A DNA stretch of 64,000 nt. Origin: Craspedostauros australis. Its lineage: Eukaryota; Bacillariophyta; Bacillariophyceae; Mastogloiales; Achnanthaceae. The notes beneath the pieces are model-generated. The model was not told where the DNA came from. It did no database searches and saw only the letters and a list, made by a program, of their open reading frames with translations. The translations under genes and the position numbers were made by a program. Of the stretch, positions 3,476 to 36,084 are shown piece after piece (the stretch's first letter is position 1; the number at the start of each line of letters is the position of its first letter). The DNA lies in the NCBI GenBank assembly GCA_026770025.1, contig JAMXDE010000078.1, positions 1-64,000 of the forward strand. Reading direction: 5' to 3'.

Positions 3476-3495
3476 TCCACATGCTCACACATACA

Positions 3496-16465: not shown

Positions 16466-16588
16466 TTAATGTGAGATGAACATTGTCAATGTGAGATGAA
16501 CATCGTTAATGTGAGATGAACATCGTCAATGGCAGATGAACATCGTCAATGGCAAATGAACTATCTGTCAACATCAAATGAACTATTG

Positions 16589-17735
16589 TTAATATCATTC
16601 CAACTACAGGAGGATGGCACAAGTCCCATGAAATGGCTGACTTGTGGGGGAGGAGGGGGAACAACACCATCAACTGTGATACTCACACATCCACGTGCTC
16701 ACACACACACACACACTGCCACACGGTACAACCAGCCACAACACACAACAACATGTGAGACCGTGATGCAACAGTCAACACACAATGAACTATCTGTCAA
16801 CATCAAATGAACTATTGTTAATATCATTCCAACTACAGGAGGATGGCACAAGTCCCATGAAATGGCTGACTTGTGGGGGAGGAGGGGGAAGTCAACACCA
16901 TCAACTGTGATACTCACACATCCACGTGCTCACACACACACACACTGCCACACGGTACAACCAGCAACAACACACAACAACAGGTGAGACCACGATGCAA
17001 CAGTCAACATCGAATGAACTATCTGTCAACATCAAATGAACTATCTGTTAACACATTCCAACTACAGGAGGATGGCACAAGTCCCATGAAATGGCTGACT
17101 TGTGGGGGAGGAGGGGGAAGTCAACACCATTCCAACTACTGGAGGATGGCACAAGTCCCATGAAATGGCTGACTTGTGGGGGAGGAAGGGGAAGTCAACA
17201 CCATCAACTGTGATACTCACACATCCATGTGCTCACACACACACACACTGCCACACGGTACAACCGGCCACAACACACAACAACACGTGAGACCACGATG
17301 CAACAGTCAACACACAATGAACTATCTGTCAACATCAAATGAACTATCTGTCAACACCATTCCAACTACAGGAGGATGGCACAAGTCCCATGAAATGGCT
17401 GACTTGTGGGGGAGGAGGGGGAAGTCAACACCATCAACTGTGATACTCACACATCCATGTGCTCACACACACACACTGCCACACGGTACAACCAGCCACA
17501 ACACACAACAACACGTGAGACCGTGATGCAACAGTCAACACCAAATGAACTATCTGTCAACACCATTCCAACTACAGGAGGATGGCACAAGTCCCATGAA
17601 ATGGCTGACTTGTGGGGGAGGAGGGGGAACAACACCATTCCAACTACTGGAGGATGGCACAAGTCCCATGAAATGGCGGACTTGTGGGGGAGGAGGGGGA
17701 AGTCAACACCATCAACTGTGATACTCACACATCCA
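16589..17735. repeat. 72-74 bp satellite, cluster 3
   Basis: Seven units in five groups, separated by short CA arrays and a linker containing GCCACACGGTACAACC. Changes between units often fall in the two bases between the hairpin arms (CT, CG or CC) and leave the arms intact. Confidence 0.9.
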
Positions 17736-17754
17736 CGTGCTCACACACACACTC

Positions 17755-18130
17755 CCAAACAACACGAGATACTACGTGCCACGCGATACACCGTGTTAAA
17801 CATGTACACCGCGCTACACCATGATGTACACATGTTCACGTTTATCTATGTGTACACAGACACGCAGCGTGTCCATACGTACACGTCAACACTTCTACCA
17901 TCTTCAACAGACCTGTACAAGGTGAGATATTGATGATCAAAGTACACAACATCAACCAGTACTTGCAATACACAGTGTCATGTACATGCAAGCACACACA
18001 CGTGTTCACCATGATCATACGCACATGTGACAACAAGAACCACACTCTGAATCAGCTTGGTGATGGAGATAGTGATGCATGAGTACAACACAAACAACAT
18101 GTGACAACACGTGATAACACGTTAATGTGA
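17755..18130. repeat. X-like repeat, proximal half
   Basis: Same half-copy as at 1380-1760, again directly after the satellite, which supports one ancestral cassette order. Confidence 0.85.
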
Positions 18131-18207
18131 GATGAACATCGTCAATGGCAGATGAACATTGTCAATGGCAAATGAACTATCTGTCAACACCAAATGAACT
18201 GTCTGTC

Positions 18208-18310
18208 AACACCATTCCAACTACAGGAGGATGGCACAAGTCCCATGAAATGGCTGACTTGTGGGGGAGGAGGGGGAAGTCAACACCATCAACTGTGATA
18301 CTCACACGTC
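18208..18310. repeat. 72-74 bp satellite, single unit
   Basis: One further hairpin/G-rich unit before the long CA array. Confidence 0.85.
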
Positions 18311-18316
18311 CACGTG

Positions 18317-19080
<764 letters not shown>

Positions 19081-19134
19081 GGCACACACATCACCACACG
19101 GCACACACGACACACCCACATCACACACGACACA

Positions 19135-19150
19135 CACACATAACACACAC

Positions 19151-19205
<55 letters not shown>
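19135..19205. repeat. (CA)n microsatellite
   Basis: CA run of about 60 bp leading into the telomere-ended repeat, the same arrangement as before 3496. Confidence 0.9.
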
Positions 19206-19208
<3 letters not shown>

Positions 19209-19416
19209 CACATGTGACTATGACACTGCACACCATGACACATTGTATCACACAAGAATATGGGATACAACACACTCAACAGTGTCGACATGACACTGCA
19301 TAGATACAGGTCAGTAGCTGTGATCACCAGTCTTCGATTGTGTTGAAATGTCACTTTCTGAAATAACACGGTTGTTACCCTAAGGTTACAGGTTTATGTA
19401 AACCCTAACCCTAACC
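19206..19416. repeat. Telomere-ended repeat, copy 2
   Basis: Shares ATGGGATACAACAC, AATGTCACTTTCTGAAATAA and GGTTACAGGTT with copies 1 and 3 and ends in CCCTAACCCTAACC. The next base begins a cut Copia-B RNase H region. Confidence 0.85.
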
Positions 19417-19653
19417 GGCACAGAAGGCCGTCACACTCAGCTCATCCGAAACAGAATACGTTGCCCTTTCCGAAGCGGCAAAGGAGATCTTCTTCGTCGT
19501 GCAGCTACTCGAAAGTGTGGGCGTCCCAGTGAAGACGCCGATCAAAGTCCGTGTGGACAACATCGGAGCGATCTTCATCGCCAAGAACCCATCGACATCC
19601 CAACGATCGCGGCACATCGACGTGCGCCATCACTACGTGAGGAACATGGTAAT
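19417..19653 (+). mobile_element. Copia-B fragment, RNase H region (left part)
   Basis: Near-identical to 55767-55993 of the whole-looking Copia-B. It holds the RNase H stretch around LSSSETEYVALSEAAKEI and VDNIGAIFIAKNPSTSQ. It is truncated on the left exactly at telomeric repeats and interrupted on the right by Copia-A. It resumes at 28902. Everything 5' of the RNase H region is absent. Confidence 0.9.
19649..19653. other. Target-site duplication of Copia-A (left)
   Basis: GTAAT here and at 28902-28906, directly outside the two Copia-A LTRs. Confidence 0.9.
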
Positions 19654-20406
19654 AGTTGGATTTTCGTGTGCTGTTGTGACACGATCCGGAAGGGATGGCC
19701 TAGTTGACTGCCAGATTCAGGGAATCTGATGATGAAGTCAACGTGTGGCGACCGTCTGGAGATTAGTAGTTAGTGACAATGAAGTAGATAAGTGTTATAG
19801 TGCTGATCTTGAGTTGTGCTATTTGTTATTTGAATAGTCTGCATTGTGAGTTGATCAATTTGAGATGTAGGATGAAGAAACGATAGTCGGTCTGAATGGT
19901 GCGGCTCTGCACTGACCTTCAGAGGTTCAGTGCTGAGGGCGGATGGGTCCTCTCTTTCTCTCTTTCTCCAGTATCTCATCGTAGTCGTTCTACGTTCGAG
20001 TACTAAGCCTTGACACCTTGATTGAGGTTTGGGATCGAGAACACAGGTTGTCAGGCCGCAGGAATTGATGTAAGATTCCCTGTGTGTGTTGAAGCAGGGA
20101 GGATCTCTTGGCTGTTGTCATGCAAGGTTGTCAGGTTGTTTAGCTGACAACGGAATTCAGGTTGGTTGTATTACAATAGTTCAGGAGAGCACATAGTTCT
20201 CAGGGTATCTTGATCTCATTGACTTCGGATAGTGTTTGAGTCAGTGGTGATTCATGAATGAGTGTGGGAGAAGGAGGGAAAAGAGTGATTGTTCCGTATT
20301 TGTTGGTGGGAGGTTTCGCGCCAAAATTTCGCGCCAAAATAATTTCAAGGTGCGACAAGGAACACACTGAGTGAAAAGTAGTCCGTTCTTTAGATGAACT
20401 TCAACT
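19654..20406 (-). repeat. Copia-A 3' LTR
   Basis: 753 bp. Bounded by GTAAT on the left and by the polypurine tract (read on the minus strand) on the right. Includes two GTTTCGCGCCAAAA-like words about 20300-20340. Confidence 0.92.
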
Positions 20407-20415
20407 CTCCCTCTC
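20407..20415 (-). other. Copia-A polypurine tract
   Basis: On the minus strand GAGAGGGAG sits directly before the 3' LTR, the expected plus-strand primer site. Confidence 0.8.
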
Positions 20416-20485
20416 AGTGTTGAGTCGCAGTGAGATCATGACATCGGTGAAAACTTCATCCGTGGTTGATGTATGAATGCCTCTC

Positions 20486-23400
20486 TTACCATCCCATGAT
20501 TTGGAATCGCAAGTACTGGAAGGTCTGGACGATTGATCCCTTGGTGAAGACATCGGCCAGCTGCTCGCCTGTCGGGATGTGTTGTACACAGATGAACCCA
20601 GCCTTGACCCAATACCAGAAGAAGTGCCACTTGGTGAGGAAGTGTTTGGTTCGAGCAGTGGGTTGGTGATTGGTGGCGAGTGAGATACATGCTTCATTGT
20701 CTTCGAAGACAGTGCACTGAAGGTTTGTGTGCAGAGGCATGTCTGTGCCTGCGTTGTCGATGACCTGGCGGATTAGCTGTTGAATCGGAATGAGGGTGCG
20801 CATTGCGAGGGAAAGCGCAGCATACTCAGCCTCCATTGTTGAGAGCGCGATCTCCGTTTGAAGCTTGGACTTCCAGATGAGCGGACATCCTCCTAGTTTG
20901 ATGAGGTATCCGGTACGCGACTTGACCGCTGTGCGATCCTGGTCGGGCTCTTGTCTGTAGAGTCCTGCGAAGTCGGAGTCAACGAAGCACGTGAGGTCCA
21001 GTTGTCCAGTGGGGCGTATGATGGTGCCCTTGTCCTGCGTAGCCTTCAAGTATCGCATAATTCGCTTAATCGCTTTTGCGTGCGAGCGACGAGGGTCGCT
21101 TCCGAAGCGAGCGACTTGGGAGACAGCGAATGCGAGGTCTGGACGCGTGTTGGTAGTGAGGTAGAGTAGCATGCCCACCACAGAGCGGTAGTTCCAATTT
21201 TCGTCCATGGGTGGCTCATGCTCGTTCCTGCCGAGTGCGGTTTGAGCCGCAGGTGTGGCAGCTCCGCCGCATTCCGTCATGCCTGTCGCCGCGAGCACCT
21301 TTTGAATGAGCCCTGGCTGCCGCAAGTGGATGTAGTCGGCTTGTGGGTCACGGTTGACTTCGATACCGAGGAACTCGTTGAAGCTTCCTTCCTGGGTGAG
21401 TTCGAATCCTCGGTTTCGCATGGAGCGGATGAAGTCGTCTGCAAATTTCTTGGTCTTGGATGCGATGCCAGCGTCATCGACGTAGAGCACTATCATGATG
21501 CCTTCGCGGATGAAGAGGCACTGCTCCTGGTCACAGGCCGTGAATCCTTCAGCAAGGAGAGCTCGAATGAGGTGTTCGTACCACAGGCGAGGGGCGATGG
21601 TGAGGCCGTATAGACTCTTTCTGAGGACAAGACAGGTGTTCGACCCCTTGCTTGACTTGAATCCTCGTGGTAGATGGAGGAACACCGGTTTGTGAATTTC
21701 GGCTTGGACGAAGGCGTTGGTGAAGTCGATTGATGTCGTGACCCATCCCAGGACGATGGATGTGATCAGGAAGATGCGGACGGAGGACCATGCCACGACT
21801 GGCGCATAAGTCGAAGCATCTTCGAGGATGAGATCGCCGCGGCAGCACCATCGACCCTTGTACTTCTTGATTGTACCGTCGGGGAGGCGTTTGCGGCGGA
21901 AGACCCACGTACCTGGGTAGATTCTTTCTCCATAGGGCACGGTGTTCTTGTCGACTTCCTCCCATGTACCCTTTTCGGTGAGATCTTGGATTTCCTTGTT
22001 CGCTGCTTGCATCCATGCGTCCCTATTATCATCACGGATGGCCTCGTCGAAGGAGAGTGTGTCTGGGTCGGAGGTGGAAGCCTTGTACGCTGCCGTTCGC
22101 TCAGAGATGTCGAGGTCGGCGCCTGTGGCGAAGTAGCTCATGAGTTGCCAGTCAACATAAGCTGGGAAGTTGGTAGCATCTGGCTGTGGCTCGATGATGT
22201 TCACGGAGTATGCGTGTTGCTCGATGTTGGCCCAATCCTTCTGTGGGATGCAGTTGTTGGTGTCAAGAATGTAGCTCGGGTCAACTGTCAGGGTGCTTTG
22301 GAGGATGGCTTGAAAGTCAGTCTCGCGCGTGTTGGGTACGTGATGGACCGGCTCGGTGCCTCCTTCTTGCACTCCAAGGTTGAATTGCTGAACTTCGAAC
22401 TTGCTGGGTTGCTGCCATGGTCCTGGGCGAATGGTGCTGGTGTGCTGTCGCAAGGATTCGAATGCCAGCCGGTAGTTGTGGCTCTGTCCGATTGCATTCC
22501 AGATGGAGAGGAACTTTGCTTTGAACATTGTCGCTCCGAGTCCGCATTCTGGAGGAGTGTGCCCTTCGTTCATCAGTGTTTCGAGGTCGTCGGATTCGGC
22601 TGGATCACGAAGAGAGCTTGCTGCGAAGTCGAGTGCATCGAAGTGTGGAGTCATGATTCCTGTGAGCATGTATTTGCTCATGATCCCGAGGAACTTGCGC
22701 ACAGCGTAGACTGTCACTTCGTTCTGTTGTTCCTCGAAGAGGAATTCGCACTCGCGATCCTCCATGATGTGGAGCTCCATGTCCAGGAAGAAGTCTTCGT
22801 ATAGATCTGTTACGTTGAATGGGGCGTCCTCCGTCATGTCCGTTGGTTCCGGTTGCCACCAATCGACCATGTTCGCTTGAAACTCCTCAGGCTCCATTCT
22901 TGGCAAATCGTTGACTGAAGCTTGTGGATTGAGAGTTCGGTAGCGTTGGCGGAGTTGGCGCAGTAGGTATAGTGAGTTGACCTTGAAATCGTGGAGGTAG
23001 ATAGAGAGAGGATCACTGCCGTTTCGTTGTAGAAATTCAATTGTGTTGAGGCAATCGATGACAGCTCGTGAGAATACGTGAATTGGATACGAATCTGGAT
23101 GTATGTCAGATGTGGCGTCGTCTGATTCAATTTCTTCTTCAGCAGCCGTCGCAACACAAAGGTGGTACTCATCGCAATCGTCGTCTTCAAGCCACGCTGC
23201 CTTGCCTCCAAGGCGTCCATAGGTGAATCGCTGTGGTTCTTTGCGAATTCTGGTGCTCCGTTCTCGCTTGGGCGTAATCGTGGATGTTGGTGGAATTGGT
23301 GATGAGGTCGTGGTCTCTGGTACATTTGATGTTGGCATAGAGGACACGGGTTGAAGTGGTGGTTGAGCTGACTGATCTTTCTTCAGCGGATCAGGGAGCT

Positions 23401-26400
23401 GGTCAGAAGGTTCCCATTGCGGTTCTTGTGAAGCGGGGCCCTCTTGGAGTTCCTCGCCTTCACTAGCTGCAGGAGGATAGCTGAAGTCTCCCTCTGTCGA
23501 AGACAGTGGTTGATTCACTCCCTCTGAAGCTGACATTGGAGGGGCGAGGTCATCATTGATGAAACCTGCGTCCGTTTGCATCATTGGTTTCTGCTTTGGA
23601 GCAGGTAGCGATGGTACCTCTGCGCCTTGATTGTCAGCGGATGGAAAGGGGATGTGAGGCGAAGCTGGGATGTTTGGTTCGATCGCATCGTTTCGCTTCA
23701 ATCGACTATGGTCTTTGAGGTCGGAGTTGAGGGTTTCTTCCTGTTCCATTGCCTCTACGTCGTCGTCATCAAATGGATACTGAAAGGTTGTATCACCAAA
23801 CATACGTGTCCACTCTTCTGATTGGTAGTTCGGCAGGTGTTTGGGGTCAGTTGCTGTAGTAGCGAACCAATCGTCGAACACCACATGGAATTGAGGTGTG
23901 ATGGATCCAGTACGTGGTGAGAGTACCAAAGGCACTGTCGAAGCGTGCTTCGTAGAAAGACCCACGTTGACGTATCGCTCTCCTCTTGGTTCCCATCGAG
24001 GTATCTTGCGTCCATCTGCGAGTGCTTTGTTGAGCACATACACAGGGCTGCCCCATACATGTAGATTGTGGAGCTGTTTGAGTGGAAGTCGGACACGAGA
24101 GAGAACATCGTATGGTGTTAGTCCTGTTGCTGGATTGGGCACACGGTTGTAAATGTAAGCTGCGTGTACCACTGCCATTGGCCATAGCTGTGCATCAAAC
24201 ATGTCAGGCCAATGAATACTTTGGTGCATCATCATTGTTCGAGCCATTGACACGATGGTGCGGATGCTTCGCTCTGCTATGCCATTGTGATGGTGGGCTC
24301 CGACTCCGGCGAATCGATGGACTTGATGGAAGGCTTCGAGGTGTCGAGTGTACTCTGGTGAAGTGAAGGTAGTTGCGTTGTCTGATAGGTAGGAGCGTAC
24401 GGGCACGCCGACGTCGCGACACATTAGTTCAAATCGTTCCTTGGCTTCTAGAGTAGCGTGTGTAGTCAGTGCTGCTACTGGTTCCACGTGAATGTAACTC
24501 GATGCGTGGTCAACGAAGATAGCTCCGCCCCTATACATGTCAATTGGGTCTCCTTTTCCTCTTCCTGTAAAGAGGCGGCCTGGTGTTCGTCCGACGAAGT
24601 GGTCTACTGACACTTGTTGGCCTGGGAACAGGTGGTCGGTTCGCAACACACCTTGTTTGTCACGCACGACATGTTGGGTTATACCTGGCGAAGGGCGCCG
24701 GTGTAACTTTCCAAACTGACATGCGGCACAAAGAGGGAGGTCGATGACTTTGGCGGCTGCGGTGTGCATTTTTCGGGATGCTTCGGATCCAGTGAGAACA
24801 CCTGAACGTAGAAGGAATTTCACTCTGTTGAAGGATAAGTGCCCGAGGCGGTAGTGCCAGCGGAGAAGCTCTTTTTGCGGTTGAGTGAGGTTGACGTTGT
24901 GGTCTGACACGGTTGACACAATTGACGAGAGCGCTTTGGGTAGGTCGTGGATGTTGTCCGAGTTGTAACCAACTGAAGTTGGTAGTTTCGTTGACTTCTT
25001 GTAGTTGGCAACAACAGCGCTGCGACCCTCGTGCCCGTCCAATCCGCTCAACTTGCATGAAGAATTGTCAAAGACGATTGTTTCTCCAGGGTATTCTTCG
25101 AGGAGACTCGAAGTGCTGATGAGCTTCACTTTGGACAAGGGTACATAGAAGGCGGGCAATCGTAGTTTGCGTGGGCTTCCACGCACGTCGAGCACATGCC
25201 ATTCTACCGTTCCCAACGCATTCACTTGGATTTTCTTGAGGAATCCACTCAGAAAGGTTGGTTTTGGTGGAAGACTTGGGGTGGTGCAGAAGTCATCGAG
25301 GTCGTTGGTGACAGAAATAGAAGCTCCACTGTCCCATACCAATTCGAATGGAGCGTTGGGAGAGAGACAGTTTTCTGCCTTCTGTGGAGATGCAAAAGCG
25401 TGACGATTAGTGAAGAAGGAGGCAAGGCCTTGCAGAGAAAGAAGTGCAGGAGCGTCAGTATCACAGGGTTGAGTCTGACTTTTGCCGCAAGCCAAGTCAA
25501 TGCCGAGCTTGGGGTAAATGTTCCAGAGATTTCGTGAGAGGGTTGATGTGCGACTTCGTGTACGTGTGATTGGATTTTGCGAATTGTTTTGTTTCGCGCC
25601 ATATTTGGAGTACTCCAACGGTGTTTTGGGCTTATTCCAATGGTGACGTTTTTGGTTGCGCTTGCGAGTTTTGGTCCGAGCAGGGCGAGGTTCTGATTTC
25701 GCGTTCCGTGGCGGACTAGTATTGAGAGCTCGCATTGGCACAGGGTCAGTTGCCTTACTGTTCTCTGTCATCGCGTCGTAGAGAGTGCGCTTCACTGGTT
25801 CATTGAAGTGGATGGGGCGGCGAATGTTGCTCTTAGACTTGGTTCGAGACATTGTTTGGAAAGTGTCGGCAGCTTTGATGGGGCTGTGTCTTCGTGGAAC
25901 ATTTGAGTGAAGGAGGAGCAGCGTGGTAGCGATTATCATCCAGGCGTTAGTTGCCGTGACGTACCACCCGTGCTCGACTCCGAGAGTGTAGACTTGAATG
26001 CTCACGAAAGAAAGGATTGATCCGATTGCACAGCTGAGGTAGTTGAAGGAGGTGAAGAGGTTCCACACAAACGACCACCATTCTTTCTCGTCTTGGCTGG
26101 TAGCAGCTGTTAAGCAGGTCCAAGCAGCCATGTCGACGACGAGATGGTCAGGCTTTGCGTTGTTGTTGCCTTTACCTTTCGGCTTGAAGTTGTCTTGATG
26201 ACTTTCGGTGTTATGCAAAAGGCGCCAACGACGACACTTCGCGCACCACATGAACGTCTTGTCATAGACGAGCTTGCGCTGTGGTTCACCCGCTTTGGGT
26301 GGCGTGGATGCCCAACCTTGGTTCGGTTTTCGATTGCCGTTGTTGTTGTTGGGCTTCTTTGGTTGATTCTTCTTCTTCGCGTTGTTCCTTCCAAAACCCT

Positions 26401-27670
26401 TGTGTTGCTCAAGGATGTTGGCCTTTGGATGCTTGGCTACATTGTTGAAGTACGATTGCCTGGGGACGTTGCGGTCCTTGACGCGTCTAATGGCGTGCCA
26501 GCGATCTCCTCGTACTTCGTTGTCGTACGAAGCCTGCGCTTTGTTGCAGATTGCCATCCAGGTGAGCTCCTTGGCTGCGAGCTTTGGAAGAGCTTCTTGG
26601 TACGTGAATATGGGGAGACGCTTGAGGATTATCTCAAGATCATCCTTCATCACATAGAGGGGACGTCGGTATTGTTCACCGGAAAGGAACTTGCCGCCTG
26701 CCTGAAGGAAGGCGTCAAGGATGTTGCGGAGCAGATGGAGGTCGAAGCGACCAGCGTCATCGAGGCTCTTGCAGAGGGCGCGAAGCTTGACAGCCATGTC
26801 TCCGACGTTCTCACCAGCGAACTGAGAGCAGTCGACTTGACGGATGTCCTTGGCGATCTTGTCTTGCTCGTCCAACGAGTTGGCGGTGATGCTATTCATG
26901 AATTCGATGAAGAGGGTTAGGAAGTGGTTGTGATACTTCCTTTCGATTCGGTTCATGAGCTGATCTTCGAGAACTGGGTCAAGGCTATCGAGGAAGAACG
27001 AGGCGGCTGCCCAGTTGTTTTGGACGTCGTAGTTGTCCCACTTCTCGTGGTATGCTTCGAAATGCCTCATTGAATCTTCAAGGGTGAAGGAGGCAGGTGA
27101 GTCGAGGACACATACCATTGTTGGGGTTGCAGCGTCATCGGCAATGTATGCCATGGTTAAGAGTCCCGTCTTGCTCATGTGGTTGTGTACCAGCCGAATG
27201 AATTGCTGGATGTTGCCACCTTTCTTGAACTTGTCGGTCAATCCAGTTTCGCGCTTGGCTTGGTTCGCAGAGTCGGCTCCGTTGTGGAGGATTCTCTGCT
27301 GCTGGGCGTGGGTCCATCTAGTTTGGGACCCTTCCTTGAGGCCAGTCCATTCCACGTTTGGTTCGCCTGCTGTCCAGGGTACCCAGTTGCGGCCTTGCTG
27401 GTTCATTCCACCCATGATGGGGACGATTGGCTTGGTGGTGAGGTCTTCGTCGTCATCGTCGCTGTCGTCGTCCGGACGCTTGCCTCCTTTCGGCTTGGGG
27501 TCCGTGATGGCGTCAGCTGCGGCTTGAGAGACGGCTGCTGCCATGTTCGCTGCTTCAGCGTTGGCTTCGGCTGTCAACGTTGCCTCTTGGAGACGGAGGT
27601 TTTCAGTCCAAATGGTCTCGAGCTGTGCTTGCAGCTCTTCCAACGTTGGGTTGGGTTCCCCTTCCGCCAT
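20486..27670 (-). CDS. Copia-A gag-pol polyprotein (2394 aa)
   Basis: Single open frame. In order: a gag-like N-terminal region; a Cys/His pair motif CAKCRRW...H...H at about residue 473; two hydrophobic, membrane-like segments at about 526-588 (unusual for Copia); an aspartic protease motif WDSGAS at about 778; the integrase zinc region (H..H, C..C in CAACQFGK); the integrase core with VDHF, LSDNATTF and HHNGIAERS; a reverse transcriptase with YVDDAG near 2063; and an RNase H ending with KHFLTKWHFFW. Order PR-IN-RT-RH is diagnostic for Copia. The start is the ATG at 27668-27670. Looks whole. Confidence 0.93.
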   Translation of the reverse strand: MAEGEPNPTLEELQAQLETIWTENLRLQEATLTAEANAEAANMAAAVSQAAADAITDPKPKGGKRPDDDSDDDDEDLTTKPIVPIMGGMNQQGRNWVPWTAGEPNVEWTGLKEGSQTRWTHAQQQRILHNGADSANQAKRETGLTDKFKKGGNIQQFIRLVHNHMSKTGLLTMAYIADDAATPTMVCVLDSPASFTLEDSMRHFEAYHEKWDNYDVQNNWAAASFFLDSLDPVLEDQLMNRIERKYHNHFLTLFIEFMNSITANSLDEQDKIAKDIRQVDCSQFAGENVGDMAVKLRALCKSLDDAGRFDLHLLRNILDAFLQAGGKFLSGEQYRRPLYVMKDDLEIILKRLPIFTYQEALPKLAAKELTWMAICNKAQASYDNEVRGDRWHAIRRVKDRNVPRQSYFNNVAKHPKANILEQHKGFGRNNAKKKNQPKKPNNNNGNRKPNQGWASTPPKAGEPQRKLVYDKTFMWCAKCRRWRLLHNTESHQDNFKPKGKGNNNAKPDHLVVDMAAWTCLTAATSQDEKEWWSFVWNLFTSFNYLSCAIGSILSFVSIQVYTLGVEHGWYVTATNAWMIIATTLLLLHSNVPRRHSPIKAADTFQTMSRTKSKSNIRRPIHFNEPVKRTLYDAMTENSKATDPVPMRALNTSPPRNAKSEPRPARTKTRKRNQKRHHWNKPKTPLEYSKYGAKQNNSQNPITRTRSRTSTLSRNLWNIYPKLGIDLACGKSQTQPCDTDAPALLSLQGLASFFTNRHAFASPQKAENCLSPNAPFELVWDSGASISVTNDLDDFCTTPSLPPKPTFLSGFLKKIQVNALGTVEWHVLDVRGSPRKLRLPAFYVPLSKVKLISTSSLLEEYPGETIVFDNSSCKLSGLDGHEGRSAVVANYKKSTKLPTSVGYNSDNIHDLPKALSSIVSTVSDHNVNLTQPQKELLRWHYRLGHLSFNRVKFLLRSGVLTGSEASRKMHTAAAKVIDLPLCAACQFGKLHRRPSPGITQHVVRDKQGVLRTDHLFPGQQVSVDHFVGRTPGRLFTGRGKGDPIDMYRGGAIFVDHASSYIHVEPVAALTTHATLEAKERFELMCRDVGVPVRSYLSDNATTFTSPEYTRHLEAFHQVHRFAGVGAHHHNGIAERSIRTIVSMARTMMMHQSIHWPDMFDAQLWPMAVVHAAYIYNRVPNPATGLTPYDVLSRVRLPLKQLHNLHVWGSPVYVLNKALADGRKIPRWEPRGERYVNVGLSTKHASTVPLVLSPRTGSITPQFHVVFDDWFATTATDPKHLPNYQSEEWTRMFGDTTFQYPFDDDDVEAMEQEETLNSDLKDHSRLKRNDAIEPNIPASPHIPFPSADNQGAEVPSLPAPKQKPMMQTDAGFINDDLAPPMSASEGVNQPLSSTEGDFSYPPAASEGEELQEGPASQEPQWEPSDQLPDPLKKDQSAQPPLQPVSSMPTSNVPETTTSSPIPPTSTITPKRERSTRIRKEPQRFTYGRLGGKAAWLEDDDCDEYHLCVATAAEEEIESDDATSDIHPDSYPIHVFSRAVIDCLNTIEFLQRNGSDPLSIYLHDFKVNSLYLLRQLRQRYRTLNPQASVNDLPRMEPEEFQANMVDWWQPEPTDMTEDAPFNVTDLYEDFFLDMELHIMEDRECEFLFEEQQNEVTVYAVRKFLGIMSKYMLTGIMTPHFDALDFAASSLRDPAESDDLETLMNEGHTPPECGLGATMFKAKFLSIWNAIGQSHNYRLAFESLRQHTSTIRPGPWQQPSKFEVQQFNLGVQEGGTEPVHHVPNTRETDFQAILQSTLTVDPSYILDTNNCIPQKDWANIEQHAYSVNIIEPQPDATNFPAYVDWQLMSYFATGADLDISERTAAYKASTSDPDTLSFDEAIRDDNRDAWMQAANKEIQDLTEKGTWEEVDKNTVPYGERIYPGTWVFRRKRLPDGTIKKYKGRWCCRGDLILEDASTYAPVVAWSSVRIFLITSIVLGWVTTSIDFTNAFVQAEIHKPVFLHLPRGFKSSKGSNTCLVLRKSLYGLTIAPRLWYEHLIRALLAEGFTACDQEQCLFIREGIMIVLYVDDAGIASKTKKFADDFIRSMRNRGFELTQEGSFNEFLGIEVNRDPQADYIHLRQPGLIQKVLAATGMTECGGAATPAAQTALGRNEHEPPMDENWNYRSVVGMLLYLTTNTRPDLAFAVSQVARFGSDPRRSHAKAIKRIMRYLKATQDKGTIIRPTGQLDLTCFVDSDFAGLYRQEPDQDRTAVKSRTGYLIKLGGCPLIWKSKLQTEIALSTMEAEYAALSLAMRTLIPIQQLIRQVIDNAGTDMPLHTNLQCTVFEDNEACISLATNHQPTARTKHFLTKWHFFWYWVKAGFICVQHIPTGEQLADVFTKGSIVQTFQYLRFQIMGW

Positions 27671-28130
27671 GATGGGCGGTGTCGGGTCCTTGAGGGGTCT
27701 TCTGACTTCGAAGGGATCGATCTGTTCTGCGTTCTACTGCTCTTGCTTCGACTTCACTTCGTTTTGAAGTTGTGCACTGAAGTACGATGCTGGCTTTAGA
27801 GAGGGCAGGCGCCTGGTCTGCAGGCGCGGTTGAGCTTGCTTGAGCAGAGGCTACTGCGGTCCGATGTTATGATCGGGTATCGTCAGTTTGGACTTTGTAG
27901 TCCTCTCGAGATGCTCGGTTTTCGAGCTGTGGAGCTTAGTGTCCACTTTGGACCTGAGGGTCCGCTTGGTATTGCTCGGTTTGCGAGCCGTGGAGCTTGG
28001 TGTCCACTCTGGACCTGAGGGTCCTTGCAGTTTGCTCGGTTTGCGAGCGTAGCCTTGGGGCTTGGTCTCTAAGAGACCTTGCGAGCGGTTGGCAGAGGAA
28101 GATGCTCAGTAGAGTTGGTGAACGTTGGTG

Positions 28131-28148
28131 TAACCACTCGCAGCTACC
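28131..28148 (-). other. Copia-A primer binding site
   Basis: Next to the 5' LTR the minus strand reads GGTAGCTGCGAGTGG; with the last LTR base it becomes TGGTAGC. It is complementary to a tRNA end ...GCTACCA, as in eukaryotic initiator tRNA-Met. The tRNA identity is inferred. Confidence 0.6.
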
Positions 28149-28901
28149 AGTTGGATTTTCGTGTGCTGTTGTGACACGATCCGGAAGGGATGGCCTAGTT
28201 GACTGCCAGATTCAGGGAATCTGATGATGAAGTCAACGTGTGGCGACCGTCTGGAGATTAGTAGTTAGTGACAATGAAGTAGATAAGTGTTATAGTGCTG
28301 ATCTTGAGTTGTGCTATTTGTTATTTGAATAGTCTGCATTGTGAGTTGATCAATTTGAGATGTAGGATGAAGAAACGATAGTTGGTCTGAATGGTGTGGC
28401 TCTGCACTGACCTTCAGAGGTTCAGTGCTGAGGGCGGACGGGTCCTCTCTTTCTCTCTTTCTCCAGTATCTCATCGTAGTAGTTCTACGTTCGAGTACTA
28501 AGCCTTGACACCTTGATTGAGGTTTGGGATCGAGAACACAGGTTGTCAGGCCGCAGGAATTGATGTAAGATTCCCTGTGTGTGTTGAAGCAGGGAGGATC
28601 TCTTGGCTGTTGTCATGCAAGGTTGTCAGGTTGTTTGGCTGACAACGGAATTCAGGTTGGTTGCATTACAATAGTTCAGGAGAGCACATAGTTCCCAGGG
28701 TATCTTGATCTCATTGACTTCGGATAGTGTTTGAGTCAGTGGTGATTCATGAATGAGTGTGGGAGAAGGAGGGGAAAGAGCAATTGTTCCGTATTTGTTG
28801 GTGGGAGGTTTCGCGCCAAAATTTCGCGCCAAAATAATTTCAAGGTGCGACAAGGAACACACTGAGTGAAAAGTAGTCCGTTCTTTAGATGAACTTCAAC
28901 T
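28149..28901 (-). repeat. Copia-A 5' LTR
   Basis: 753 bp, the same length as the 3' LTR. It would carry the element's promoter. No core promoter element could be assigned with confidence. Confidence 0.92.
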
Positions 28902-29059
28902 GTAATCAACAAAACCATCGAGATCATTTTCGTCAAATCCGAGCAAAACACAAGCGACGGATTCACCAAGAACATCAAGGCCGACTTACAACGTGAACAC
29001 GAGAAGTCGTACCTTGACACATCGAGAACATTCGAATGACCGAATGCACACAGGAAGGG
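28902..29059 (+). mobile_element. Copia-B fragment, right part up to its 3' LTR
   Basis: Continues the Copia-B sequence interrupted at 19653, ending with the polypurine-like ACACAGGAAGGG just before the 3' LTR. It matches 55989-56152. Confidence 0.9.
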
Positions 29060-29855
29060 TGTCGAGATGTACATGTGAGTATATGTCGAGATGTACGAGT
29101 ATATGTGCATCGTTCACCCGCTATTCTCTCATACGCACTTGGACGGTATAACTACATTCGTGTCGATAGTATACTGTGATTCGTCAGAATTACAGGGGAA
29201 ACGGAACACACGAAAAGGGGCAAGATTTCTGGAGGAAATTTGCAAATGACGATTTCTGAGAGAATTAGAAGATCGTCCGTCCATCCATCAATGGTACCAA
29301 GAGAATCTCGAGGTACTTCCCAACTAAACCTCAGATGACGATATCATCTGACAGACCACTGCATCACCAATGGAACGTGACATCTGGAGAGCAGAAGGAC
29401 GCCTACTGACGTCGACAGGATGTCATCATGTCACCACGTCGACATCTGTCTCCAAGTCAGAGCAGGAGGCGAAGATCCGATGACCGAAGGGCATCAGCAT
29501 CATGGATACAGAAGGTGAACTTCAAATGGCGAGTACTCATGGAGTAGGAGCCAGTACTGAATGAACGGAGTGTCGAATACGGAGTACGTATCGAACACGG
29601 AGTATCGTGCGCGACGAGCACACGATGTTGAGAGAGAGAGAGAATACAGAAGAGGAGCGAGAGAGCATCTCGCGTACCGACTCATAGTCGGAGACTGAAT
29701 CTACGAAACAGATTGAAGCACCAAGAGCATCGGGCAAGAGAACGGGCGTACACCGAGAGCATCGGAGTAGCCAAGTAATGAAATAGCAAACGAACGACTA
29801 TCAACCAACACCATCTTCCACGATCGTAGGTTACCGTGAGCGGAACTTGCCAACA
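29060..29855 (+). repeat. Copia-B 3' LTR of the truncated copy
   Basis: 796 bp, TGTCGAGATG to CTTGCCAACA. Same family as 49102-49894 and 56153-56940. Its right half is closer to the LTR at 49102 than that LTR is to its own partner at 56153. Confidence 0.9.
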
Positions 29856-32107
29856 CAGAGAGAGGAGTGACTTGGCTTCGTCAATCGGACAGTATGAGCA
29901 ATGTGGAGACCGATGACGATGAACAGCGCAGCAGAACCGGAGAACAAGGAAATTCAGAAGATGCTGCGCTAGAGCAGGACGACCTGCTACCCGTCCAGGA
30001 GGATCAGGAACCAGACGATGACGTCGGCGATGAATCCGGAAGGGACGAGGATGGAAGGAGTGAGGAAAGAACGGTAGAAAAAGAACCACCCTCGACTCCA
30101 GTCGCAACACCTGTTGCGTACGTACCGAGAATGGTCAGAGATCTCGCAGGGTATAACAACTCGCCCGTTCCTAAAGAGGACAGAGACTACGGATCCAGCG
30201 AGGCCTCGGAATCTGACGATGAGAAGCAAGAGACTGCCCAAGAGACAGAAGCCGAAACAGCGGCGACAGAGGGGCCGAGCTTCCATACAGACGGGTCGAT
30301 GTTCAACAGAGACGTCGCAGGGATGATGATAGACACCACTCACGGAAAGATGAGATTGGATGACTTCATCGCTGCGAGCCAAGTAACGAATGATCGAGTC
30401 AGACCCGAGCAAGCAAGCGTAGCTATGATGCTAGACCCCACCACCTTCGAAGAATGCTGGGACCATGCAGATCCCAAGAAGAGAAAGAAGTGGAGAGAGG
30501 CTATCAATAAAGAGTTCAACGATATGACCAGAAGAGGAGTATGGGAGAAGATCAAGAGGAACCGAATGCCAAGGGATCGGCGATGCGTGAAGACCAAGTG
30601 GGTATTCAAGGAGAAGAGGAACGGAGTCTTCCGGGCCAGACTCGTTGCCTGCGGCTACTCACAGATCGCAGGAGTGGACTTCTCAGCACACCACGCACCA
30701 GTGATTCATGATGCAACCTACTGCATCATGCTCACTATGAAGATGCTGCTGCACATGGATAGTATGATCATCGACTTCGAGACAGCATTCTTGCATGGAG
30801 AACTTGACAAAGAGATCTACATGCAATGCCCAAAGGGGATGAGGCATGAGGCTGACGAATGCTTGCTGCTCAAGAAGACCATCTACGGATTAGTGCAGAG
30901 CGCCAGACAATGGAACAAAAAGCTGGTCGACATTCTACTCAAACTGGGATTTCGACAGAGCAAAGTGGATCCATGCCTTCTGATTCGAAATCAGGAAGGG
31001 AGACTACTGCTAATAGGCACCTACGTCGACGACTGCCTATGCATCGGAGAAAAGGAGGAGTTGAAGCAACTGACCATCGACATCAAAGCTGAGCAATTCG
31101 GAATCAAGGTGGAGAACGACCTCGAAGATTACCTCAGCTGCAAGATCATCTTCAACAACGACCAGTCGAACTGCTGGGTGAACCAGCCACACATCATCAA
31201 GAACATCATTGATACATTCAAGGATGACGTACTGACTCTACAACGATACGGAACTCCAGGAACGCCAGGACAGGGTATCCAGAGAAACAGCGACCTACCC
31301 AAAGTGGACAGTGACCGACACAGCAGATACCGAAGCGGAGTAGGTATGCTGCTCTACTTGGTGAAGCACTTGCGACCAGACATTGCGAATGCGGTGCGCG
31401 AACTTACCAAGGTGCTGGACGGACCATCGGCTGCAGCATACAAGGAGATGCTGCGAGTAATGAAGTTCGTATCGGACACGAGGGACTACGGACTACGAAT
31501 GCAACCAACCCCGCTGGAGAACGACGCATGGAAGATCGAGATCTACGCGGACAGCGAGTTTGCGGGAGACAAGGATAACCGGATCAGTGTCGGGGGACAT
31601 CTCGTCCTACTGCAAGGGGTGCCCATCGTATGGAAGTCGAAGGCACAACGAAGTGTAACTCTCAGCTCAACAGAGGCGGAATACGTCACTCTGTCAGAAG
31701 CAGGAAAGGAGATTCGCTTCCTCACACAACTAATGGAGGACATCGGCTTGACGATGACCAAACCAGTGGATGTGTATGTGGACAATGTGGGGGCTATCTT
31801 CATTGCCTCCAATCCGTCGACATCAGCACGAACGAGACACATCGATATACGACACCATTTCACTCGGGAGCTGATAGACAACGGAGAAGCACGAATTCAA
31901 TTTGTGCGCTCAGAGGACAACATCGCAGACGGCTTCACCAAGAACACAAAGAAGGAGATTTACGATAGACACAAAGGGAGCATCATTCAATTGAGATCGA
32001 CCATGGATTAATGGGACAGAAGAGATGAGTGCAAGAGCGAGACAAGGGAGTGAGACGAGAGACGATTTGTGTGTGTGAGTGAGTATGGTGGTGCGACAAT
32101 GGAAGGG
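29856..32107 (+). mobile_element. Copia-C pol fragment (RT and RNase H)
   Basis: The open frame to 32011 holds an acidic linker, then a Copia reverse transcriptase (RCVKTKWVFKEK, DFETAFLHGELDKEIYM, GTYVDDCLCIG) and RNase H (YADSEFAGDKDNRISVGG, LSSTEAEYVTLSEAGKEI, NPSTSARTRHIDIRHHF). Gag, protease and integrase are absent: the fragment begins directly after the Copia-B 3' LTR, as expected if Copia-B inserted here and the far flank was later lost. The first nominal codon is GTG; the frame simply runs in from the left. Incomplete element, older than Copia-B. Confidence 0.85.
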
Positions 32108-32884
32108 TGTCAGGAATCGGGGGTACGACTTTGCAAAGATACCGTATTCTGCCGCAGCTCCCATGAGGACTGACTGGAACCGGAATGGTATTAAGTGCAA
32201 AGATACCCATGATTGCCGCAACCCCCAATAGCATCTTCCAGACAAACCGCAACCTAGCAATCGACCAGTTGCACTCGGACAGCCCAATGGCCTTACCTGT
32301 CTTATGCGACATCCAAGCACCCTCATCCAGTGGCCTACTCGGCCATGTCCCGATAACGGTCGGGAACCGAGAGATCTATGACGATGGCAACACACCAGCC
32401 CTGAGTGAATCGAATGAGCGCGACAACCAATATATCTGAACAAGTCGACGCGTCCCTGAGAACCTAATGTGAGAAAGTGAAACAGAGGCGATCCCTATTC
32501 ACCCAAGACCACGATCCAGATGACAATAAGTTCCAAAGATCCAAAGGCAACCATCGAGATGACCGGAAGGAGGAACTGAAATGAAGTGGGACCAGTGAGG
32601 TGACAGGAGACCGAAGGAGAGGTACCTACAGGTCTACGAGTATGAACTTGACGAATGTAGGTGCTCTCCAATCCTCAGCTAAGCAAGCGATGAACCACGA
32701 TGAAAGCAAGATGAAGATGCAGACGAAAGGAGCCAAGCTAAAGGGTGTAACCTCAGGTGGCTACTGCGGATCATGCTTGTTGTGAATTGGAATCGAAAAG
32801 AGATGAGCATGTTGTGCTCACAGTTCTAAAACGGTACAGACTGATAACAGATTAGTCTACTACTATAACCCCGGATTTCCAACA
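32108..32884 (+). repeat. Copia-C 3' LTR
   Basis: 777 bp, TGTCAGGAATCGGGGGTAC to CCCCGGATTTCCAACA, preceded by purine-rich GACAATGGAAGGG. Same family as the solo LTRs at 5728 and 45632. Its right border cuts a host ankyrin gene. Confidence 0.88.
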
Positions 32885-33569
32885 GATGTTTTTGCTGGAA
32901 ATGTCCTGGTCTTCCAGGAGCATCTTATGGATGCTGGAAATCCTGATGTCAACGAACTCCCTGACCACAAGGGACGGTCGTAGTTGTTCCACGCATGCTG
33001 TGCGAACTCGCATGACATCGTGCGATTCGTGGTGGAGCAGTGTGGCGCCAATGTGGATGCGCTGGGCGAAGCTGGGTATTGCGCGCTATACGCCACTTGC
33101 TGCTTCGATCACCTTGACATCGCTCGATACTCGCTGTGCCTTGCTGGCACTAGCCTACTCCTGCCCTCTCGTGGTGACTGTTTACCCATCCATGGCGCAT
33201 GCATGCGCAACTCGATCAAGGTTGCCTTGTACCTTGCCAAGAACCACAACTGCGGAGGGAACGTTCCAGATGAAAATGGTATGACTGCGTTCATCCATGT
33301 ATGCAAGTTGAGTAGCGCAGCTCTAGTCAAAGGACTACTGCAAGCCATGAGTGTTGATCTATCTGGTCAAGACCGATTGGGGCGTTCTGCTCTGCATTAT
33401 GCATGCATGGCCACGTTGCTACAGTCAAGCATCTTGTCCTCAAGCATGGTGCTGACATCACAGCTCTAGACCACAACAAGGACACTCCCATCGAGTTGGA
33501 AAATGGAATGGGAAGCTGGACATCATACAATTCTTTTCTAAACACGCTGTTACCATTGCTTCACGTTGA
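32885..33569 (+). pseudogene. Ankyrin-repeat gene remnant, 5' part missing
   Basis: Ankyrin-type reading: LFHACCANSHDIVRFVVEQ, then DENGMTAFIHVCKLSSAALVKGL and LGRSALHYACM, typical of the xGxTxLHxA helix-turn-helix repeats used for protein binding. The upstream part is gone because the Copia-C LTR ends at 32884. There is an in-frame TAG near 32986 and at least two frame changes, near 33410 and 33510. After the last repeat the frame can end with KLDIIQFFSKHAVTIAS and a stop near 33569. It probably belonged with the BTB region just downstream. Host gene, no longer functional. Confidence 0.7.
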
Positions 33570-33572
33570 AAG

Positions 33573-34045
33573 TTGACTATGCCATTCACTGTCACCCATG
33601 TGACGACGTGTCCTCCACTTCCATTCGACGAGAGCAAGCACACTTGGGTGAGGTTCGACCAAGAACGCACCACCCCAAACAATGGACCTGACAACAACGA
33701 TGTGACCTTTGTCTGCGGAAGTGGTGGTGATGATGATTGCCTCCGCGCCAACTCCGCAATTCTGCCCCACGTCGTCCCCAGAATTGGGCGACTGCTGAGC
33801 ACGGTGTTGGCTCCAGAAGAAGGCCTTTTTCTCAGTCTCTCCTTCATGCACCAGACGTGAGTCATGTCAACGATGATGGTGCCGTCACCATTCCTCTGCC
33901 ACTATTCAGTGCAAAGCATGTTGCCATTGTCCTCAGCTGCATCTACACTGGCAGTATTGTATTCGATCGTCACAATTCCGACCTGGACAACCTCCACAAC
34001 CTCAAGCACGAATTATTCTGGCTTGCTTGCGTGCTCAGGATGTGA
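33573..34045 (+). pseudogene. BTB/POZ-domain gene remnant
   Basis: NNDVTFVCGSGGDDDCLRANSAILP and, after one frame change near 33840, AVTIPLPLFSAKHVAIVLSCIYTGSIVFD resemble the two halves of a BTB/POZ domain (DVTF...HRAIL and IPLPxFSxxxxxxVLxYIYTG). BTB domains dimerise and often recruit ubiquitin ligase cullins. It starts only a few bases after the ankyrin part, so one ankyrin-BTB gene is the simplest view. The C-terminal region continues after a likely intron. Confidence 0.65.
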
Positions 34046-34299
34046 AGTGAAGCACTCTCAGGCACACAGATGACAGTCTTCTATTGATTATCTGTTGTTG
34101 GTGTATTGCTGATACACTCCTTGTTGTGAACCAGATTATGACCACATACCATAAATCCAACAAAGACACATGCTCTGTTCGTTTTTTCCCCTGTGTTGTT
34201 TCAGCCACAAACACTCCGCCTCAGTTGCTTGTGACTGTACGGTCACAGAATCTTTGACCAATACGAGCTACGCGACTCGTTTGACCCCAAAACTCACTC

Positions 34300-35027
34300 T
34301 AGCAGCTCATCCTGCTCTGCAACAAGTTCGAATTCTGGAGAATGAAGCTCGCAGCAGAGATGCACATCATCCACTCCAGCCTGAACAAGCCGTTCGTAAT
34401 GGAGTTGGTGGGCTTCGTTGACGACAACGCATGCCATGTCCTGTTCGATGCATGCATCCACATGCTCATGAACAACAAGACTGTCCTCCTGGAACTCCCA
34501 GAGGCACGTTCATTCATGGACAATGGATTCTTCAGAGCTGTCCTGTTGTTGATACAACAGTCCTGCATTGGTTCCCTACCCAGATATGAGCTGAAGGGTG
34601 GAACCAGAGCTGGTGCTGTGTGATGTCAATGTTGTTGGTTCGATCAGATATTGTTAGTTTGATTTATGAATCTGTTTTGTTGTTTTGTGCTGTTGCTTTG
34701 TGCCCGTGCTGTTTGCATGTGTGTGGTTGTTTTCATCTTCGTTGCGTCTCTTCGCCTTGGCGCGGTCATTCGGGTCATTGTGAGCATGGTGTGTTCCATG
34801 CAGCTGGCGGAGGCCACAACATGTACCAACACCTGCTCGACCTCATGGCAGCCCTAAACAGCACTGATTTGGCCACCAATCACTCCAAGGAGACCATTGA
34901 CCAGCTGTATAAGCGCTGCAAGGAGGAGCTTGGTGTGTCTCTCACCTCTTACCTCCACAGGGATGCGTTGATTGGATGGATGGAATCCATGAAAGATAGC
35001 TCCAACAAGCGCCAAAGCACCAAATGA
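34300..35027 (+). pseudogene. BTB gene 3' exons
   Basis: The open stretch at 34342-34623 includes AEMHIIHSSLNKPFVMELVGF and has the helical character of a BTB C-terminal (BACK-like) region. A likely GT-AG intron runs from about 34613 to 34802: donor after AGAGCTG, acceptor ...CCATGCAG, and the joined codons stay in frame. The last exon (34803-35027) encodes HNMYQHLLDLMAALNSTDLA and ends SSNKRQSTK before a stop. An earlier intron ends near 34202 (TTTCAG). Confidence 0.5.
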
Positions 35028-35293
35028 TCAACATAGAACGACGATTGCACAGCATTCATGACAACACCCACTAGCAACAGAAACAGCAGACTGCACTATG
35101 ATAGCCGTTTACGTAGTGAATAAATCTACAAGTCTACGAAGTTTGAAAGTACAGAAGCTTATATTCGAGTAGATATGAATCGATTCGTGTAGGCCATGAT
35201 ACTCGCAGATGAGCAGAAATCTGTGTGATTCCTCTTCCCGTTCTGCGTGGTGCTGTGGAAACGCGAGGGTTTGTGTGGCGGGATGATGACGAA
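35028..35293. other. Spacer, nothing recognised
   Basis: Between the BTB gene end and a Copia-C LTR. No feature seen. Confidence 0.5.
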
Positions 35294-36084
35294 TGTTGGA
35301 AATCCGGGGTGGTGTGATAGTAGAAAGCTAATCGTTTGTTAGAATCTACTTCTCTGAACTGTGAGCTCTTCATTGCTCTCAATTGCAAAGTCCAATCTCC
35401 TCCTGAGATCACCATGGGTCCCTCTGTTGGTCTAGCAGGCATCCATCTTGCATTCATCGCAAATTCACCATGGACATGCATGCACCACCGAGTACCCCAT
35501 GTTCGTGCACACAAGCACGTTGTCCTCCGCTGATAGTTTCGATGCCTTAGACATCGCCGAGTCGTAGGCATCACACAGATCGGTTCAATCGATCAGATCA
35601 CAGTCTCTCATGCATCGCGGGAACGCGTTGGTTGGGAGCTCATTCAGCTCCTCGACCATCTCACATCTCCGATCATTTCACATCTCCGATCATCTCCGAT
35701 CGACTCCGATCGTTTCTGATTGTTTCTTCGCCGATCACTTCACCGGCTTCCTGGAAGTTCCTCATACCAGGTTCGTTCACAGGCCATCTCACACTTCGTG
35801 ACATCGGCCCTCCTCCAGTACTCTTTTTCATTGGTTGCGACATGGGGGCCGTAGTCGCTCGTATCGTGATGTTGGTCACGATTCCAACATCCCCGCCCCC
35901 TGCGACATACACGTGTGATTCGCATTCCTGCATTGGAGTCATGAACGTCAAGGCATGGTTCGCATTCGGCACGTGACGTTCTCCACCGCGAGTTACGTGC
36001 AGCTCACATTTTTCTGTGTCACAATGATCAAACGTGGGAGTTGCGGTAATGTAGAATATCCCGACGTTCGGCTCCTTACTCCTG
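35294..36084 (-). mobile_element. Truncated Copia-C LTR
   Basis: Starts (plus strand) TGTTGGAAATCCGGGG and runs parallel to 5728-6510 with few differences, then stops before the last ~45 bp. Together these two form a sub-family distinct from the LTRs at 32108 and 45632. Confidence 0.85.

Follow-up and report, generated by a model that had tools for sequence, protein, structure and literature searches.

A telomere-bordered Copia-B remnant in the diatom Craspedostauros australis probably marks the margin of an internal segment copied recently

Yeast Y' elements are tandem subtelomeric blocks in one orientation, separated by short telomeric tracts, and they encode a helicase. In Magnaporthe oryzae, 5'-truncated relics of the MoTeR retrotransposons retain the 3' end plus a short piece of telomere and have their 5' ends towards the chromosome end; the available account reports that in 12 of 19 relics an internal duplication starts at the 5' boundary of the truncated relic, and that broken ends are recapped (PMC7367193). 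In Fusarium oxysporum, FoTeR elements are described as having a 3' end followed by TAACCC repeats and tandem repeats upstream, as encoding a reverse transcriptase, and as having more numerous truncated than full copies (PMC12857005). In Caenorhabditis elegans, TALT is an internal block that has been duplicated to an end of its own chromosome in association with telomere-like sequence, and its use as a template for other ends was demonstrated after telomerase loss (PMC4595603). A literature search over the titles and the starts of abstracts of the papers listed found no earlier description of such joins in diatoms.

We analyzed 64,000 nucleotides of a C. australis contig (C76); this whole stretch is called the window. 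Domain searches gave 61 LHC and 88 silicic-acid-transporter matches, which indicate a diatom host. The first-pass annotation had proposed that a chromosome break within the copia element Copia-B at 19417 was capped by telomere repeats and that the distal flank was lost. Copia-B indeed stops at 19417 against a telomeric tract of 16 bases, but the loss of the flank is not supported. A 24.3-kb block on the plus strand, from 19417 to 43732 (block W), is a copy of C76:115484-134835 (R) plus contig C17 from position 1 to about 24538 (S). W and R are 99.8% identical over 19,367 alignment columns, and W and C17 are 99.5% identical over a further 4,905 columns. The donor is intact across both edges, as C17 continues past 24538 and C76 continues to the left of 115484. 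At the R locus Copia-B runs on leftwards (C76:110033-115720 matches 50321-55999 of the window) and has its 5' LTR at C76:91070-91439 plus 103893-104323; it is bounded by CAGAGA on both sides and lies inside Copia-C (C76:81323-128951). The flank that had been called lost, comprising the 5' half of Copia-C and the 5' part of Copia-B, is present at C76:81323-115483.

Differences between R and S are confined to the parts near their two contig ends (S: 19522-24340; R: 33776-38773), whereas W is set apart from both by five substitutions and one 10-bp repeat unit, all between 28695 and 37610. This distribution makes it probable that R and S represent a single locus and that W is another. The possibility that W and C17 are two alleles was rejected, since R, which lies on the same contig as W, agrees with C17 against W. 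Use of the block as a template for other ends was looked for with positions 33000 to 38000 of the window: of the 46 matches obtained (40 of 502 candidates were scored), those at full length were W, R and S alone. In addition, W carries at 38837/38838 a site without the ~290-bp insertion found in C17, with GCAAC on both sides (this site and the CAGAGA, GTAAT and GATGTT duplications were read by eye). Divergence along the block is uneven, with 5 substitutions in ~19.3 kb against 19 in 4.9 kb, the latter for the comparison of W with C17 only. Blending of the consensus or gene conversion may therefore play a part, and the age of the copying is only loosely bounded. The pairing of flanks around block W rests on the assembly. 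Between 19417 and 28695 there are no differences at all between W and R, and for this reason the link from the telomere side to W depends on assembly over 9.3 kb.

The nested elements record what the donor contained. Copia-A, -B and -C are assigned to Ty1/copia by their RVT_2 domains, their LTR pairs and their GTAAT, CAGAGA and GATGTT duplications; the reverse transcriptase of Copia-B was tested on a complete relative in the window only, at 49977-56132 (LTRs at 49101-49894 and 56152-56940 by self-comparison). The outer piece of the Copia-B 3' part (19417-19653, plus strand) is 96.2% identical to 55763-55999 of that relative. Copia-A follows on the minus strand at 19654-28901, with LTRs at 19654-20406 and 28149-28901 that are 98.7% identical and a 2394-aa minus-strand frame containing RVT_2 and gag_pre-integrs. 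It is flanked by GTAAT at 19649-19653, within the outer piece, and at 28902-28906, so its proposed position within Copia-B holds. The rest of the Copia-B 3' part, including the 3' LTR (28902-29855, plus strand), is 95.7% identical to 55995-56940 and adjoins Copia-C at 29855, as had been noted. CAGAGA at 29856-29861 is the right copy of the Copia-B target-site duplication, the left copy of which lies at C76:91064-91069 in the unbroken locus. The 3' half of Copia-C (29856-32884, plus strand; RVT_2 frame at 29867-32011, last LTR at 32108-32884) is 96.7% identical to C76:70621-73661.

LTR pairs differ by 16 substitutions in 778 positions for Copia-C, by 0 in 370 plus 6 in 433 for Copia-B, and for Copia-A by 9 in 753 in R and 10 in 753 in W. 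Use of these values as a clock was rejected: those of Copia-B and Copia-A are too close to order the two elements, and their order therefore rests on nesting. The nested target-site duplications in the unbroken copy confirm the suggested order of insertion, Copia-C, then Copia-B, then Copia-A. The timing of Copia-A, which had been considered unfixed, can now be narrowed: the unbroken copy has Copia-A at the same site, which puts its insertion ahead of the break or copying. The donor sequence itself thus shows all three elements nested before copying.

The outer side of the break is formed by a subtelomeric element (STE). The window begins with a terminal telomere, (CCCTAA)n, at 1-314 of the plus strand (52 units by TRF), followed at 302-3739 on the same strand by one or more distal STE blocks, delimited by self-comparison, which start with CCCTAGCTGTAG and end with GTAAA(CCCTAA)2; an inner STE starts near 1907, and the STE-end pattern is found at 3702. 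A complete STE at 15854-19415 (plus strand) matches the distal block and ends at telomere units, and the tract AACCCTAACCCTAACC occupies 19401-19416 of the plus strand at its inner edge. Since 19143-19415, telomere units included, matches 3467-3739 at 84.7%, the units belong to the repeated element. Thus the proposal that Copia-B was broken and joined to telomere-bearing sequence stands, while the idea of a bare cap does not, because the units are the inner edge of an STE. CCCTAACCCTAA did not occur in 100 shuffles of the window. Beyond the terminal array, C76 has five runs of at least 12 telomeric bases that read CCCTAA; every one lies within the outer 19.4 kb of the contig, and four of the five are at STE borders. 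In the window, no run in the TTAGGG orientation was found.

At the junction 19416/19417 (J1) telomere repeats stand directly on broken sequence, the unbroken form of which is known at C76:115484. They have 0 bases in common with what precedes the corresponding position on the left in the unbroken copy, and no telomeric seed is found at the break, where the G-rich strand reads CTGTGCC and then GGTTAGGG. A short telomeric seed is usual, although not obligatory, at de novo telomere addition. At the other edge of the block, sequence comparison places the junction at 43732/43733 (J2), where W meets an STE relic at 43733-43890 (plus strand), which consists of the last 158 bp of an STE, ends in GTAAACACTAACCCTG and is 84% identical to 19258-19415. 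Block W therefore lies between a complete STE and an STE relic, and the two are of different subtypes. The inner end of W coincides, exactly or nearly so, with that of a repeat family (41614-43736), whose copies elsewhere are mostly 88-89% identical. Homology-driven copying at J2 was rejected, because this repeat does not extend into the STE on the far side; the join looks non-homologous.

Taken together, we favor, as rather probable, the reading that repair added to the chromosome end a second copy of an internal segment, now at 19417-43732. The apparently capped Copia-B then probably forms one margin of a piece of 24,000 bases that was copied recently, with the unbroken original deeper in the same chromosome, and on that ground the site most likely reflects the repair of a chromosome end, not simple loss. 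First, an end closed by STE and telomere would have eroded or broken inside the STE, leaving the 158-bp relic. Secondly, a homology-independent join at C17 ~24538 would have linked the broken end to an internal part of the same chromosome, present on the sister or homologue, and copying would have run from there towards the telomere; the product is seen in W. Finally, the copy would have ended inside Copia-B, owing to a subsequent break or to a halt in copying, and this end would have been closed with telomere repeats and an STE to give the join seen at J1.

As in the described MoTeR loci (PMC7367193), the truncated relic keeps its 3' end with a bit of telomere and points its 5' end to the chromosome end, copied internal sequence begins at the 5' boundary of the relic (J2), and the broken end was apparently recapped. 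The donor of W persists intact. The locus differs from that account in that the block has also kept its outer edge, where another element of the same family sits, and MoTeRs are retrotransposons whereas coding capacity was not found in the STE. Block W resembles TALT (PMC4595603) in being an internal sequence copied in cis to a chromosome end with telomere-like sequence. The two differ in that TALT is a demonstrated template for other ends, whereas W would be a putative one, and in that the donor of W lacks telomeric units at both borders of the part that was copied. Since the donor and both block edges survive in one assembly, the sequence of events is legible and every join is open to checking. 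The locus would extend relic-marked duplication and recapping, known from a fungus and in related form from a worm, to a diatom, and it illustrates that an apparent terminal deletion can be a duplication edge. Three other STE flanks (C32, C19 and C11; 1.5 kb each) were not copied whole elsewhere; their best non-self matches were 96-99% identical, spanned at most ~860 bases and lay in repeats. With repeat-length matches only, these flanks do not support copying to ends as a habit of this genome.

An alternative, which we regard as unlikely, is that the break hit the telomeric units separating two neighbouring STEs of a tandem array, that the proximal STE lost all but 158 bp, and that the gap was closed by joining in a 24.3-kb fragment copied from elsewhere. 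Position 19417 would then never have been a terminus, and no cap would have been made there. Tandem STEs with ~10-20 telomeric bases between them do occur on C47, C40 and C88, similar to the 16 bases at J1, and both J1 and J2 lack the homology needed for recombination; interstitial telomeres in Magnaporthe are also described as breaking and rejoining by end joining (PMC7367193). However, a single inserted piece would have to be end-joined twice and the distal arm would have to survive, the outer STE and the relic, 84% alike, belong to different subtypes, and STEs elsewhere adjoin transposon-derived sequence as if capping it (C32:31750 and C19:1271318).

A wrong pairing of the flanks in the assembly seems improbable. 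The true order would then be telomere, STE, Copia-B remnant and C17 (a simple terminal deletion), with the other flanks forming a 96-kb circle or a tandem unit X-Copia-B-W-relic-X. In favor of this, the first base of C17 lies 89 bp from the break point, the C76 match stops ~59 bp before the site of the private insertion of C17, and both contigs stop near branch points of the shared 19.4-kb stretch. Against this, W bears its own variants throughout the block, no pairing other than that in the assembly leaves a single linear chromosome, and the circle or array is otherwise unseen. With the contig correctly assembled, a simple terminal deletion without copying is very improbable: it would account for normally oriented telomere units against mid-element sequence, but the supposedly deleted flank exists on the same contig and the second copy and the STE relic bounding it at 43733 are left unexplained.

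STEs elsewhere behave as directional end elements. All 38 matches to the STE-end pattern, on 15 contig ends, point the same way with the CCCTAA side inward; they lie within 44 kb of a contig end and adjoin differing sequences (the pattern itself contains CCCTAA, so that its matches test orientation and place only). At three further places, C11:13375, C56:37507 and C56:38603, the strand agrees with the contig end. A fourth, C54:397498, was left outside this comparison. The outer (5') end is variably truncated, as in the relic at 43733, and STE-STE joins on C40, C56, C52 and C53, read by eye, begin at different points of the element. Like Y' elements, STEs are tandem and one-way with short telomeric tracts between them; unlike Y', with its helicase, they have no Pfam domain in the frames scanned. 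The single frame of at least 150 aa in the complete STE (17406-17933) gave none; 8 of the 13 such frames in the outer 19.4 kb were scanned, both STE-block frames among them, and none of the 8 matched a Pfam family.

The fixed inner end, the telomere repeats, the single orientation and the variable 5' truncation are also those of MoTeR- and FoTeR-type elements. The STE further resembles FoTeRs in its upstream tandem repeats and in the excess of truncated over full copies. It is conceivable, though doubtful, that the STE is a non-autonomous, telomere-primed retroelement which attaches through its CCCTAA-bearing 3' end to broken ends, each join of an STE to foreign sequence, that at Copia-B included, recording one end rescue. 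If so, diatom ends would be rebuilt by the cycle of break, copy and recap known from MoTeR-carrying fungi. The reverse transcriptase or autonomous partner typical of such elements was found neither in the STE frames scanned nor among 131 RVT_1 matches; FoTeRs do encode a reverse transcriptase (PMC12857005). Reverse transcriptases on C83 and C89 were rejected as partners, being group II intron maturases. By eye among the 131 matches, the sole RVT_1 match within 45 kb of one of the 15 STE-bearing contig ends is at C19:1265352-1265900, 5.4 kb inward of the STE.

The telomeric stretch at 19401-19416 (16 bases) holds two telomere units, more than chance would give (CCCTAACCCTAA in 0 of 100 shuffles). 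These units are part of a repeated subtelomeric element (STE), because the match between 19143-19415 and 3467-3739 takes them in; the terminal telomere itself lies at 1-314. The genome was searched for the STE end with 3 mismatches allowed, using a pattern that holds CCCTAA and so tests orientation and position only. It was found at 38 places, spread over 15 contig ends, with the CCCTAA side facing the chromosome interior in all 38 and at most 43.9 kb from the contig end. With 197 bases of the STE end as a DNA query, at least 40 matches came up, 4 of them at places beyond the pattern set; three of these agree in orientation, and the fourth is C54:397498. The sequence inward of the units varies: another STE, its start trimmed in some (contigs C40, C56, C52 and C53), subtelomeric arrays (C76:3740, C15, C5) or transposon-like sequence (C32:31750, C19). 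At C47:7100-23405, 15 STE ends stand in a row, 11 of the 14 spacings being exactly 1,143 bp, with about 13-14 telomeric bases at the joins. Neither of the two STE frames of at least 150 aa matched a Pfam family.

Sequence comparison bore out the first-pass annotation, which had described a broken Copia-B, a Copia-A nested in it and a Copia-C starting mid-element. With its 3' end, a complete relative at 49101-56940 matches the Copia-B remnant (19417-19653 and 28902-29855) at 96%; Copia-A (19654-28901) has LTRs 98.7% alike and GTAAT at both borders; and the 3' part of Copia-C runs from 29856, mid-element, to 32884. The complete relative keeps an open frame of 2051 aa, yet its LTRs are just 95.9% alike. 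Elsewhere, at C76:74060-75391, a Copia-A-family LTR comes immediately after a partial LTR of the Copia-B family; it may be the solo LTR that remained when a further Copia-A had inserted into a Copia-B LTR.

The unbroken locus with the missing flank, which was to be looked for in related strains, was found within this assembly, where C76 ends on the right and where C17 begins. Window 33000-38000 gave approximately 100% full-length matches at itself, C76:129067-134058 and C17:13516-18506, while 43 of the 46 matches listed were partial. With 99.8% identity in each case, window 19417-38778 corresponds to C76:115484-134835 and 19506-38837 to C17:10-19343. Left of C76:115484 Copia-B runs on, C76:110033-115720 matching 50321-55999 of the complete relative. 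Its 5' LTR (C76:91070-91439 and 103893-104323) is split by another LTR element (C76:91440-103893, LTRs 99.7%), and a third one lies behind it (C76:104746-110024, LTRs 100%). CAGAGA stands at both Copia-B borders (C76:91064-91069 and 125923-125928), and a second Copia-C copy shows this site uninterrupted at C76:70621-70626. The host Copia-C (C76:81323-128951) has GATGTT at both sides, and Copia-A (C76:115721-124968, GTAAT) occupies the same position in Copia-B as in the window. The nested CAGAGA and GTAAT duplications thus establish the proposed insertion order, Copia-C, Copia-B, Copia-A. The timing of Copia-A had been left unfixed; since the unbroken copy carries Copia-A at the same site, all three insertions predate the copying.

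Agreement of the copied block, W (19417-43732), with C17 extends to 43732, at about C17:24538; beyond, W reads ATATGGGATAC... and C17 reads TTACAAG.... A relic lies at 43733-43890: the final 158 bp of an STE, matching 19258-19415 at 84%, with its end among the 38 pattern matches. Therefore W is flanked by STE sequence at both edges, by a complete copy on the outer side and a truncated one on the inner. At neither join, 19416/19417 or 43732/43733, is there homology to the replaced side; two bases, TA, agree just past the latter. The 1.5-kb flanks of three other STEs, on C32, C19 and C11, gave no W-like copy among the best 40 candidates scored per search.

In a three-way alignment of W with its counterparts, every change private to the C17 copy (5 substitutions, 16 gap columns) lies within 19522-24340, towards the C17 end, and every change private to the right-end C76 copy (13 substitutions, 8 gap columns) within 33776-38773, towards the C76 end. 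We infer that these changes are contig-end errors and that the two copies are one locus common to both contigs. Because they read as one locus, the chromosome would run from the telomere through STEs, W and the relic to a further 71.6 kb, which includes the left part of the nest, and on to the unbroken nest and C17. Private to W are 5 substitutions (28695, 29907, 32568, 35463, 37610) and a single repeat unit of 10 bases (35681-35690). An insertion of about 290 bases, flanked by GCAAC on each side, is present in C17 and absent from W, so it arose later or belongs to another haplotype; the C76 copy stops before that place.

Divergence of W is uneven, 5 substitutions in about 19.3 kb against 19 in the next 4.9 kb, the two counts being unlike in that both counterparts filter errors in the first stretch and only W and C17 are compared in the second. 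Twelve of the 19 fall within one 687-bp repeat (40928-41614), which suggests gene conversion or a consensus problem there; without it, 7 in 4.2 kb is still high (Poisson 1e-4). The unevenness could come from gene conversion involving other copies or from a blended consensus where W and the C76 copy overlap in sequence. Judged by sequence, the copying appears recent relative to the LTR-pair substitutions of Copia-C (16/778), Copia-B (6 in about 800) and Copia-A (9/753).

The simplest chain would be that an STE-capped chromosome end eroded or broke, leaving the relic; that end joining linked it to an internal part of the same chromosome, from which DNA was copied towards the telomere; and that copying terminated inside Copia-B and the end was recapped. 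Copying may have stopped at Copia-B, or may have reached the end, giving a 96-kb terminal duplication that was afterwards shortened to a point within Copia-B. A less probable alternative is that a fragment was captured at a fragile STE-STE join, 19416/19417 never having been a chromosome end. Because 9.3 kb (19417-28695) are free of any difference between W and the C76 copy, the flanks may also have been mis-paired in the assembly, though this is unlikely; the evidence base is one assembly of one strain, with flanks paired as assembled. There are parallels in a fungus and in worms. In Magnaporthe, 12 of 19 MoTeR relics carry 5' flanks that are duplicated from the relic onwards; for nine of them the authors judged the structure to fit end joining between resected telomeric elements and internal sequence (PMC7367193). 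Seeds of 1-4 bases underlie 19 of 24 new telomeres there, whereas the join at 19416/19417 has no seed. In worms, TALT blocks result from duplication of internal regions, in cis, to the ends of chromosomes and have telomere-like sequence on their flanks (PMC4595603). Of the listed papers on diatom telomeres or subtelomeres, none described such joins in its title or at the beginning of its abstract, and the available portion of the Phaeodactylum telomere-to-telomere paper mentions subtelomeric sequence once.

The assembly comprises 74.8 Mb in 90 contigs; C76, whose first 64 kb form the window, measures 134,859 bp. A repeat of about 790 bp at 35294-36084 and 5728-6512 recurs at 21 or more further places among the matches listed (93-97% identity), subtelomeric and interior alike. 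Window 60622-62088 is a long stretch of degenerate tandem repeats, with 16- and 24-base units, that is open in two frames, and its Pfam match to the phage gp5 C-terminal domain is probably a product of the repeat. Group II intron maturases lie at C83:35800-37800 and C89:35-1444 on low-GC stretches (35-37%); these contigs are probably organelle genomes. Genome-wide there are 61 light-harvesting (PF00504) and 88 silicic acid transporter (PF03842) matches, which mark the host as a diatom; the PDB relatives of one light-harvesting protein include fucoxanthin chlorophyll a/c proteins, though LHCI chains of another entry fill the top rows. Diatoms as a rule have a handful of silicic acid transporters, so with 88 matches PF03842 looks strongly expanded here; 32 of the 88 cover at least 480 of the 513 model positions, and 4 of these 32 have internal stops.
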